Below, piece by piece: positions 34,833 to 38,929 of a stretch of DNA of 38,929 nucleotides; the first letter of the stretch is position 1; each line of letters opens with the position of its first letter. This DNA is from Mycoplasmatales bacterium (lineage in GTDB: Bacteria; Bacillota_I; Bacilli_A; Mycoplasmatales; JABAAY01). The stretch covers positions 1 through 38,929 of the forward strand of contig JABABL010000007.1 in NCBI GenBank assembly GCA_014238225.1. Reading direction: 5' to 3'. Below the pieces are notes generated by a model. That model was given only the letters and a program-made list of their open reading frames with translations, did no database searches and was not told where the DNA came from. A program made the translations under genes and the position numbers.

Positions 34833-35435
34833 ATGAATATTTTTTTTCACTTAGAAGAGGAAAACAATGTCGCACAATTATTATCATTACAACTAATTGG
34901 AGGAAAAAAGATCATTTCTTTCGCTAGAAGAAAGATGAATATTTTTAAAGAAAAATTAAGCCCAGTTGTTTTGAATCGTATTCAAAATTTTCCCAAAAAC
35001 GAAATAATGCTTTTAGCAAGAGATCTAATCATTCAATACCTAAAAGATGAAGATAGTAAAGTTTCTTATTACTTAAATCTTTTTGAAACAATAATCATTA
35101 ATCATAGCAAGTATACTTTGAGCTTTTTTCATAGAATACTAACATTTATTTATGAGAATGACATTAGAAGCCTTGACTTCATAGGACTAGTACACAAAGA
35201 AAAAATTCCTTCTTTTAAGGAATACACTCCGACCATGCTAAGACACTTAGTTAAATATGTAAATAAAGAACAAGTCAAAGCGCATATATCTTTTTGCTGA
35301 ACACCACAAGTTATAAGTATTTTTAGTGCTTTGCGTGCCGCTTCAATTATGATTTTGGACGGCAAGATCACTAAGGAATCATCATTCCAAGTTACCGATA
35401 TTTTTAATGAAATAAGTGAATTTTTAGCCGTTTAG
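34833..35435 (+). CDS. Predicted soluble helical protein, unknown
   Basis: 200 residues, mainly alpha-helical, with no TM segment and no motif I recognise. UGA is Trp at 35298-35300. ATG 34833 has an AAGGAG SD six bases upstream, overlapping the end of the four-TM gene, so the two are co-translated. Its TAG stop (35433-35435) overlaps the TAA stop of the convergent minus-strand gene by two bases, so the two 3' ends share four bases and no terminator fits between them. A small helical partner of the membrane protein is one guess; nothing in the sequence proves it. Confidence 0.75.
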
Positions 35436-36457
35436 AAGAAGTCAAAGTAAGAACCAGCAGCAACACCTAACCCAGCTATTAGTACAATAAAAATAAGAAA
35501 TGGTCAGATTCAAACGATGAATTTAGCGTGTTTTCTTTTTTTCTTATAAGCCTTTTTTTGCGGTTTAGATAATTTTGCCTTTTCTTTTCTAGACATCTTA
35601 TCTCAATCACGTGTATCAGTGCCTGAAATTGCAGGATTTACAGTAGATCCGGAATTTTGTGTGGATAAGGATTGCATTTGTTGTTGTATTTGTTGTAGTT
35701 GCATTTGCTGTAATTGTATTTGTTGCATCTGCATCTGTTGTTGTAAATTAGTGGGTTGCGGTGTTTGACTTTGAGAAGCAGATTCTAGGTGAGGAGTTTC
35801 TTGTTTTTTGTGTGTTTGAATAAAAGGATTTTGTATAGTGGTGGAAGTTTGTGTTTCAACAGAGGGCATTTCACTTGAGTTGGCATCATTTAAATCGGAA
35901 GTAGATGCGACATTATCTAATTGGGCCAGCGCTTCTTGGGGGGTTAAACTAGCGGAGTCTGTAACCGTTTCATCAGAGGTTTGATTCTCTGAATTCAACT
36001 CGGTTTCGTCTAATTCGCTTTGCACCTTTAAGTTTATTAGATTCTCAACGGTAAAATTCACACTTAGTTTAAATGCAGAAGTAACTTTTAGATTATTTTT
36101 GGATATTTTTAAATTTCTTAAAAATATTTTTTTAAGTATTGTGGAGTCAAAATTTTCTTTTGCAAAGTCGATTTTTTCCTTGATAAACTGCTCAATTTGT
36201 TTAACGTATTCTTTTGCTTCTTCCTCGCTATCGAACGAAACGTCCAGTTCTTTTTTGTCCATTGAGTCAAATGTAATTTGTTCACAAATAATTTCGAATG
36301 CTTTCTCGTAGTCGCTCACAAGCAAATCAATTACAGGCACCTCATTATTTTTTAAATTGTTGAATTTTTTGAAATTGTAATCATCCAAAATGTAATTTAT
36401 TATTTGATATATATTTTGTTCAAGTATTTTTTTTTGATTGTTTGATAAATTTTCCAT
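35432..36457 (-). CDS. Tail-anchored Q-rich coiled-coil protein, unknown
   Basis: 341 residues. Residues 1-150 are charged and helical. About 150-235 is a Ser/Thr/Glu/Asn-rich disordered linker. Residues ~238-263 are almost only Gln, Met, Leu and Ile (pattern QLQQMQLQQIQQQMQ), a probable coiled coil. A Lys-rich stretch (about 290-312) then leads into a single hydrophobic helix (~314-339) that ends at the C-terminus. This is a tail-anchor layout with the bulk of the protein in the cytoplasm. UGA is Trp at 35603-35605 and twice in the TM start; under the standard code the membrane anchor would be missed. ATG 36457 diverges from the Z1 gene across 23 bp. Function unknown; an oligomerising membrane scaffold is inference. 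Confidence 0.78.
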
Positions 36458-36466
36458 TTACTTATT

Positions 36467-36474
36467 ATTATAGT
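36467..36474. promoter_or_regulatory. Overlapping divergent -10 boxes
   Basis: Within the 23-bp region between two divergent start codons (36458-36480), the plus strand has TATAGT at 36469-36474, six bases before ATG 36481. The minus strand has TATAAT at 36472..36467, nine bases before ATG 36457. The two share the self-complementary TATA at 36469-36472, so RNA polymerase can probably melt only one direction at a time. Both -35 regions fall within the opposite gene and are not consensus. Confidence 0.5.
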
Positions 36475-36480
36475 ATTGTA

Positions 36481-38241
36481 ATGTTAATAAATGGAAAAGA
36501 TAAAAAAGTTAACTGAATAGATGAAAAAAAATGATCTATTATTAACGACGTCATAAGAACATTTCCGTATTTAAACAACAAAGAAGCTAGAGAAATCATA
36601 TTTGAAAATATTTCTTGAACATTAAACCATTGTGCGGCACCTAACGTAGAGGAAAAAACGAAAATCACTAATTTAGTACAAGGTAGAGTACAGTCCGGCA
36701 AGACAACTAATTTTGTTTCTTTGGCAGCAGGTGCTTTTGATCAAGGTTATAAAATAGTTATAACATTGGCCGGCACCAATTCCACACTGGTTAATCAAAA
36801 TTTGGATAATGTTTCCAAAGCCTTTGGTGTTCTAAGAGACAACAATGTTAAAATTTTTGTCACAGACGACATTAATCAAAACTGCACTGCTTTCATTACT
36901 GAAAACATTAAAAACAACAATAATGTTTTTATAGTTATTATGAAACATATTAAACACATAAAGAGTGTAGCTTCCGCTTTAAAAAGTAATTACAATGCTA
37001 AATGACCAGTGTTAATAATTGACGATGAAGCCGATATAAACACCATTAATTTATGCGTTCAAAAACTTTCTCCTCTCCATGGAGAAATTATAAACCTACA
37101 AAATATAATGCCTTTAACAAGTTATATTGAGTATACGGGAACTCCCCAATCACTACTTTTAGGGTCCCATAATAATTCTTTATCTCCAGTTTTTGGCAAC
37201 ACAATAAGAACATCACCACAGTATTGTGGACTAAATTTTTATCATCTTCCTGACAGCAAATATGTCGAAACTATTGAGAGTGTTGATAGTGTTTGTTCCT
37301 ATTGTTATTCTCTATACTATTTTTTGCTTGCTAGTTACTTTGCTGGAAAACAAGAAGATTTAAATTACGAGATGCTTGTATACAGTAATTATGAAATTAA
37401 TCAAAATAAAAAATTGGTCCAAATTTACAGCACTGAAATTGAAAACATTAAGAACCAAACATTTAAGGGTGAAATTATTAATTTGCTTTTTTCAAAATAC
37501 AAAAATTTTGTGACAAGAAATGGCAAAAAAGAACTTGAAACAATTTTGTCCCAACAGGCACGTTATGTGCGAATAAGCGAATTATTTGGAAAAAGTACAA
37601 AAAAAATGAAAATTGAAAACGACCAAAAAATCTTTCCCTTATACATTGGCTCCAAGTTATTAGGAAGGGGAGTTTCTTTTCGAAATCTTCTTGTTGAGTA
37701 TTTATCATTAGAAAATAAAATCGTTAAGGTTGATAATCTCCTACAAAAAGCAAGATGATTTGGATATAGAACAAAAAACAGAAATAACTGATTGAAAGTA
37801 TTTACAACTCAAAAACTCAAAGAAACTTTTGAGGACTGTAGGAAAGCCGACAATGCCATTTGGACACAAATGAGACTAATAAGACATAGCGAAAGTTCTC
37901 TTTCGAATCATGCTATTTACTTTCCAAGCGCCTTTAACTACTTAGTTCCGACCGAAGCCAAGAAAATGAAAGGGTCAGAAAAAGAAGTTTTAAAAAAAGG
38001 GGAAGTTATTTCTGTAGAAATTTTCAATGTTTGAGATGAGAGTGTTCATTGTTTGCAAACACTAGTTGAATATTTTGTAAAATCTCATGATATTCCCGTT
38101 ACGCAAGATTTATTAAAACTTGCGATGGCTATTTCTTATTTAGAAGGAAATGCCTCTTTAAATATTGAGGAAAAAAAAGCAAGCTATGTTGTAAAAGCGG
38201 ATGTTATTATTTATTCTAGAAAGACAAAAGATGAAGTATAA
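36481..38241 (+). CDS. Z1-domain P-loop ATPase (SF2 helicase-like)
   Basis: 586 residues, with several UGA Trp codons. Walker A is GRVQSGKT at residues 68-75, the Walker B-like DDEAD at 181-185 (preceded by VLII), and YIEYTGTPQSLLLG corresponds to the YTATP motif. LYIGSKLLGRGVSF near 388-401 matches the family IGG-x-LSRG motif, and QKARWFGYR at 422-430 is the arginine-finger motif. These define the Z1 domain (PF10593), known from restriction/defence operons with GHKL ATPases, Vsr-like or PD-(D/E)XK nucleases and methyltransferases. None of those partners is here. The first ~60 residues and the last ~140 are unassigned. ATG 36481 follows a -10 by six bases. It overlaps valS by 11 nt. Confidence 0.9.
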
Positions 38242-38929
38242 TTTTTTAGAAATTGAAAAAAATAAGATAAATTTTTGAAGAGAAAATAATTTTTTTATCA
38301 AACATGATAATGACAAAGAAAATTTTGTTGTTTTGCTTCCTCCTCCAAACATAACAGGAAAATTACATTTGGGGCATGCTTGAGACGGAGCATTACAGGA
38401 TTTTTTTATTAGATACAATCATTTGCAGGATAAAAATGTTTATTATCTTCCTGGATATGACCATGCTGGAATTGCAACGCAAGTAGCCGTTGAAAAGTCA
38501 TTGAATAAGAAAATAAATACTGAATCAAGTCAGGAAGATAAAGAAATTTTTTATAAAGCAGTTAATGAGTGAAAAGAAAATTTATTTGATGCAATTGATA
38601 AACAATGAGATGTTCTTGGATTATCAGTACAAAAGTCTTATAAGCAATTTACACTAAGCGAAGAGGTTAAAGAATTAGTTTCAAAAGTCTTTGTTGACTT
38701 ATACAATCAAAAATTAATTTATAAAGGCAAAAAAATTATAAATTGAGATGTTAAATTGCGGAGCGCCATTAGTAACATAGAAGTTGACTACAAAAAGGAA
38801 AAAACCAATTTATTTTTTATTAAGTATTTTTTGGAAAACTCAGGTGAGCAATATTTGGAAGTAGCTACAACAAGACCAGAAACTATTTTTGGAGATTCTG
38901 CATTATTCGTTAATCCTTCCGATCCAAAA
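38231..38929 (+). CDS. valS: Valyl-tRNA synthetase, 5' part
   Basis: The first 233 codons of a class I aminoacyl-tRNA synthetase that charges tRNA-Val; the gene runs off the window. The [17 protein letters not shown] block contains the HIGH motif (HLGH, near residue 47), followed by [28 protein letters not shown] and [13 protein letters not shown] (editing-domain entry) are at the end of the visible part. UGA encodes Trp several times. ATG 38231 lies within the last four codons of the Z1 gene, so translation is coupled to it. No T-box leader, which often controls valS in Firmicutes, is present directly upstream. Confidence 0.95.

Follow-up and report, generated by a model that had tools for sequence, protein, structure and literature searches.

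The 23-bp spacer that separates a glutamine-rich (Gln-rich) protein gene from a divergent Z1-domain ATPase gene in a Mycoplasmatales genome is most likely a sigma-70-type bidirectional promoter, in which two overlapping and opposed -10 elements would direct leaderless or near-leaderless transcription both ways. This reading follows from the overlap of the hexamers and the registers that they form, from their placement at distances to the start codons that the genome prefers, and from their conservation in a relative. The promoter would be of a known kind, here probably a leaderless version that seems widespread across the genome, and would add an exceptionally compact two-way promoter from a reduced genome, joining the two known themes of leaderless transcription and bidirectional promoters. 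A literature search on bidirectional promoters of mycoplasmas and on those with leaderless output yielded no relevant report.

Genome and Genes at the Locus

The window, the whole stretch of 38,929 nucleotides that was analyzed, is contig C58 of a Mycoplasmatales draft genome (G000; 680 kb in 60 contigs, 88% complete), of which 660 kb were examined together with approximately 450 kb of a relative (G001). Genes were called on the 660 kb with starts picked mechanically, and the open frames of the genes at this locus require TGA to be read as tryptophan (Table 1). The N-terminal region and the C-terminal hydrophobic segment of the Gln-rich protein are conserved, and the part between them varies. 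Homologues of its gene were found in 2 of the 59 genomes searched, only within its own genus, a count to be read with the low complexity of the protein, which hampers detection of distant relatives. The gene has a dN/dS of 0.16 against the relative, and its first ~30 codons are 98% identical, with three synonymous and no non-synonymous changes among 33 codons; as amino-acid conservation largely accounts for this identity, no extra element is claimed there. The Z1 ATPase carries a Walker A (GRVQSGKT) and a Walker B (LIIDDEAD) motif, both seen by eye, and is under strong purifying selection (dN/dS 0.07 against the relative). Its end overlaps the beginning of valS, and no -10 stands at leaderless distance ahead of the valS start. 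Given this overlap and the absence of a leaderless-type -10, valS is probably co-transcribed with the Z1 gene, such that the predicted plus transcript would feed an essential gene.

Table 1. Features of the locus and of other short divergent spacers in the genome. Positions are those of the window unless a contig label is given; L046 is the contig of the relative that carries the locus.
Feature	Position	Strand	Description
Gln-rich protein gene	35432..36457	-	ATG at 36457; 341 aa; C-terminal hydrophobic segment, tail-anchor-like
Divergent spacer, proposed bidirectional promoter core	36458..36480	.	23 bp, TTACTTATTATTATAGTATTGTA, read directly
TATTAT, further plus hexamer	36463..36468	+	in spacer
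AATAAT, alternative minus -10	36464..36469	-	6 nt before Gln-rich gene ATG; AATAGT (4/6) in L046
TATTAT, alternative plus -10	36466..36471	+	9 nt before Z1 ATG; kept in L046
TATAAT, minus -10	36467..36472	-	6/6; 9 nt before Gln-rich gene ATG; kept in L046
TATAGT, plus -10	36469..36474	+	5/6; ends exactly 6 nt before Z1 ATG; kept in L046
Z1-domain ATPase gene	36481..38241	+	ATG at 36481; 586 aa; stop 38239-38241
valS (valyl-tRNA synthetase) start	38231..38929	+	11-nt overlap with Z1 end; start inside last Z1 codons
Peptide deformylase / rsmD-like spacer			17 bp, TTATATAATATTATTAT
BPL_N-domain protein / MATE transporter spacer	L061:808-831 (G000 C11)		24 bp, AGTTATTATTATAGAATTTTATTA; shares 12-mer TTATTATTATAG with the locus
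PTS IIB / unknown spacer			27 bp; identical in relative

Opposed -10 Hexamers in the Spacer

An earlier note on this DNA had described a 23-bp gap between the two genes and, within it, a plus-strand TATAGT and a minus-strand TATAAT that share a TATA. Direct reading confirms both the gap, which lies between the two ATGs, and the pair of hexamers, which overlap in the TATA at 36469-36472. This pair corresponds to a predicted start-to-start distance of 21 bp. The same TATAAT forms a second register of 18 bp with the alternative plus TATTAT at 36466-36471, in which the -11A and -7T of the plus element pair with the -7T and -11A of the minus element, an arrangement that is kept in the relative; indeed, both registers are intact there. 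The alternative minus AATAAT is less likely to be a functional element than TATAAT, as it is weakened to 4/6 in the relative.

The note had also likened the spacer to published bidirectional promoters with symmetric -10 sequences, and this comparison is supported by the reciprocal -11A/-7T positions of the 18-bp register, by the distances and by conservation. Bidirectional promoters have divergent start sites 7-25 bp apart and overlapping -10 elements, most often at 18 bp (PMC10268837), and the 18 or 21 bp predicted here from the hexamer positions lies inside this range. Overlapping opposed -10 elements are likewise present in Escherichia coli PacrA/acrR, PsoxS/soxR and others (Warman et al. 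2026, PMC12825309) and on Salmonella plasmids and the chromosome (PMC10268837), and the present locus, like these promoters, sits between two divergent coding genes. Unlike them, it belongs to a mollicute, both of its transcripts are predicted to be leaderless or nearly so, and its starts are predicted from sequence. A T at -18 relative to each start is common, though not obligatory, in bidirectional promoters under the Warman/Grainger definition; for the plus start at 36478 of the 18-bp register, the base at -18 (36460) is an A, and other start choices differ.

A -35-like TTGATA is present on the plus strand at 36442-36447, with a spacer of 18 to the TATTAT at 36466-36471, and no good -35 was found for the minus strand at this spacer. 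The spacer contains neither an extended -10 nor a Shine-Dalgarno (SD)-like motif. In the 200 nt upstream of each ATG, perfect -10 hexamers are confined to the spacer; alternatives further upstream on both strands reach 5/6 at best and are situated inside coding sequence.

A Leaderless Signature Across the Genome

The distance of each -10 hexamer to its start codon was measured for the genes called on the 660 kb. Among 101 divergent genes, 22 have a -10 of at least 5/6 whose end lies exactly 6 nt upstream of the ATG (2.0 expected), and a perfect TATAAT is found at this distance in nine divergent genes against an expectation of 0.25, with a second, smaller peak at 9 nt (10 divergent genes, 2.0 expected). 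The 6-nt peak also appears in same-strand genes whose upstream neighbor is distant (13 of 99 vs. 1.5 expected) and is weaker in operon-internal genes (15 of 184 vs. 2.1 expected). The same two peaks, at 6 nt and 9 nt, are present in the genome of the relative. SD-like motifs precede 12% of divergent genes vs. 35% of genes within operons. As a -10 that ends 6 nt before the ATG places the usual start, the seventh nucleotide, on the A of that ATG, many genes are predicted to be leaderless, and leaderless transcription is predicted to be widespread in this genome. No -35 signal is visible in its leaderless promoters, and for this reason the TTGATA at 36442 was not leaned on.

These distances bear directly on the spacer. 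TATAGT at 6 nt and TATAAT at 9 nt both stand at genome-preferred distances, and both mRNAs are thus predicted to be leaderless or nearly so. The Z1 gene matches the leaderless, or TA-led, layout exactly. The Gln-rich gene has its TATAAT at 9 nt and not at the main distance of 6 nt, and would possess a leader of 2-4 nt. Leaderless TA-led genes have been described with a Pribnow box whose first T lies ~12 nt upstream of the start codon, and are reported at 18.3% on average in five Mycoplasma genomes (BMC Genomics 2011, PMC3160421). The locus shares this placement, with no or almost no predicted leader, and differs in that a single 23-bp spacer combines two such boxes, joined back to back. Sigma-70 promoters of Mycoplasma gallisepticum likewise lie in AT-rich surroundings, with a -10 of the form TA[T/A]AAT and without a detectable -35 (PMC4245973), features that the predicted leaderless promoters described here have in common with them. 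The difference lies in the leaders, as in M. gallisepticum the most frequent length of the 5' UTR is close to 15 nt and no more than nine leaderless transcripts were found (PMC4245973).

Taken as a bidirectional promoter, the spacer would accept RNA polymerase in either orientation, but never in both simultaneously. Plus-strand transcription is predicted to begin at the A of the Z1 ATG (36481), or at 36478 in the alternative register, and the plus transcript would probably run through the Z1 gene into valS; the minus start is predicted at about 36459-36461, 2-4 nt ahead of the ATG of the Gln-rich gene. If the spacer is as weakly active as promoters of this type usually are, constitutive use of both directions would be expected, with no noticeable interference between them.

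Conservation in the Relative

The relative (G001, contig JABAAY010000040.1) is the sole one with the locus and has all three genes in an unchanged order. The earlier note had called for the conservation of the spacer to be checked in related genomes, and in this relative the spacer is again 23 bp long with 22 of 23 bases identical; the one difference, T to C at 36465, falls outside TATAGT, TATAAT and the TATTAT at 36466-36471. Approximately 34% of synonymous sites differ in the flanking genes (dS 0.45), a level at which one change or fewer in 23 positions is unexpected (binomial P = 9e-4). Measured against the columns of other divergent spacers, of which 14.5% differ, the conservation is not significant (P = 0.13), and constraint is therefore claimed relative to neutral sites and not relative to other promoter regions. 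Across the 12 divergent spacers that could be aligned with the relative, columns of predicted leaderless -10 elements differ in 3 of 98 cases, compared with 121 of 837 elsewhere (Fisher P = 7e-4), which supports the view that leaderless -10 hexamers are functional in general.

Chance and Alternative Explanations

When 23-bp spacers were simulated (Markov-1) to match the dinucleotide composition of the divergent spacers of this genome, 7.2% contained an overlapping pair of hexamers, each of at least 5/6, and 2.3% contained such a pair with one hexamer perfect. In DNA this rich in AT, the overlapping pair by itself is just somewhat uncommon and is weak evidence. Position relative to the ATGs is much stronger evidence: a plus element at 6 nt together with a minus element at 6 or 9 nt is found in 0.2% of simulated spacers and in 0.45% of AT-rich genomic 23-mers. 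Pure chance was thus rejected as the origin of the pair, as hexamer position and conservation make it unlikely, though a bare overlap is not rare (7%). A rival explanation is that only one set of hexamers is a real promoter, while the other is a by-product of the near-symmetry of TATAAT in AT-rich DNA, with the second gene transcribed from elsewhere. The frequency of overlapping pairs among random AT-rich 23-mers and the weaker hexamers further upstream on both strands lend this explanation some weight. However, each element stands at a genome-preferred distance from the ATG of its own gene and is retained intact in the relative, and the upstream alternatives are the inferior, intragenic ones described above; an arrangement of this type is considered unlikely.

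The earlier note had proposed that only one open complex should fit and that the two genes would be expressed in a mutually exclusive or noisy manner. Its structural part stands, as the -10 elements overlap, steric exclusion is real and two open complexes cannot form simultaneously. Whether the shared TATA would also force a competitive switch, with exclusive or bistable and noisy output, is a separate matter, and such a switch is considered improbable. In all five bidirectional promoters tested in E. coli, basal activity was too low for competition, which arose only upon strong activation of one side (PMC12825309), and no activator site was identified for the present locus. Further, in the E. 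coli case studied, transcription constrained by interference led to lower cell-to-cell noise (PMC12825309), a result that, if it may be transferred to a mollicute, runs counter to the noise that had been expected. An off state is also unlikely because the plus transcript probably includes the essential valS, and the same layout is present at unrelated housekeeping pairs. Least probable of all is the notion that the dyad in the spacer, TACTAT-T-ATAGTA in the relative and with one mismatch in the window, is the operator of a regulator that controls both genes. The relative does possess a perfect 13-bp inverted repeat, and the 12-mer TTATTATTATAG occurs only twice in 660 kb, each time in a short divergent spacer. 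However, two opposed -10 elements by themselves yield such a dyad, and no complete dyad exists elsewhere in the genome, which contains just a single further copy with one mismatch, different in type, and a single copy of the version in the window. The dyad as a repeated operator was consequently rejected, only isolated copies being present in the 660 kb.

Other Compact Divergent Pairs

The bidirectional promoter proposed for the locus has counterparts elsewhere in the genome. In 13 of the 66 called divergent pairs, both starts have a -10 of at least 5/6 at a distance of 4-10 nt, and this is true of all four spacers of 17-27 bp, the locus included. The layout recurs at compact divergent pairs of unrelated (housekeeping) genes and is a general feature of the genome, not one special to the Gln-rich and Z1 genes. 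The suggestion of the earlier note that the promoter joins the two proteins into one regulatory unit is not supported: adjacency alone links them, the Gln-rich gene was found only in its genus among the 59 genomes searched, Z1 homologues in other Mollicutes reside in other gene sets, the Z1 gene here overlaps valS, and the layout recurs at unrelated pairs.

It is possible, if somewhat short of an even chance, that the shortest divergent pairs of this lineage share fused leaderless bidirectional promoters. A stretch of 17-27 bp would then accommodate the promoter, its start sites and the 5' end of either gene, close to the smallest size at which divergent transcription can still be independent, and at the present locus one of the two genes would probably feed the essential valS. 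Should start sites confirm this, the compact divergent pairs of mollicutes would form a convenient natural set with which to define the minimal size of a divergent promoter, and the same set would be suited to asking whether polymerase interference matters where there is neither a leader nor a -35. The 27-bp divergent spacer at L085:14144-14170 (G000 C33), GTTTATATAATATATTATACTTATTAA, contains the perfect palindrome TATAATATATTATA, is identical in the relative and is a still more symmetric candidate bidirectional promoter.

Neighborhoods of Z1 Genes

In other Mollicutes, Z1 homologues are found in same-strand clusters with other gene sets, some of them defense-type operons. Their neighbors include an HSP90-like ATPase (HATPase_c_3) together with HNH (L003), HATPase_c_3 (L007) and DUF4420 (L004). 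HSP90-like ATPase and nuclease genes are absent beside the Z1 gene of the window, whose neighbors are the Gln-rich gene and valS. A DUF4420 search of its own genome gave no match, a result to be read with the control, which also gave no match anywhere, and a search for a C5 DNA methylase found none. The proposal that the Gln-rich and Z1 proteins constitute a defense unit was rejected, as neither PADLOC nor Pfam support was found for the Gln-rich protein and the Z1 gene of the window lacks the partners that Z1 has in relatives. The Z1 ATPase is possibly a domesticated relic of a defense operon, with the partners known from other Mollicutes absent beside it, its sequence under the purifying selection noted above and its end overlapping valS by 11 nt.
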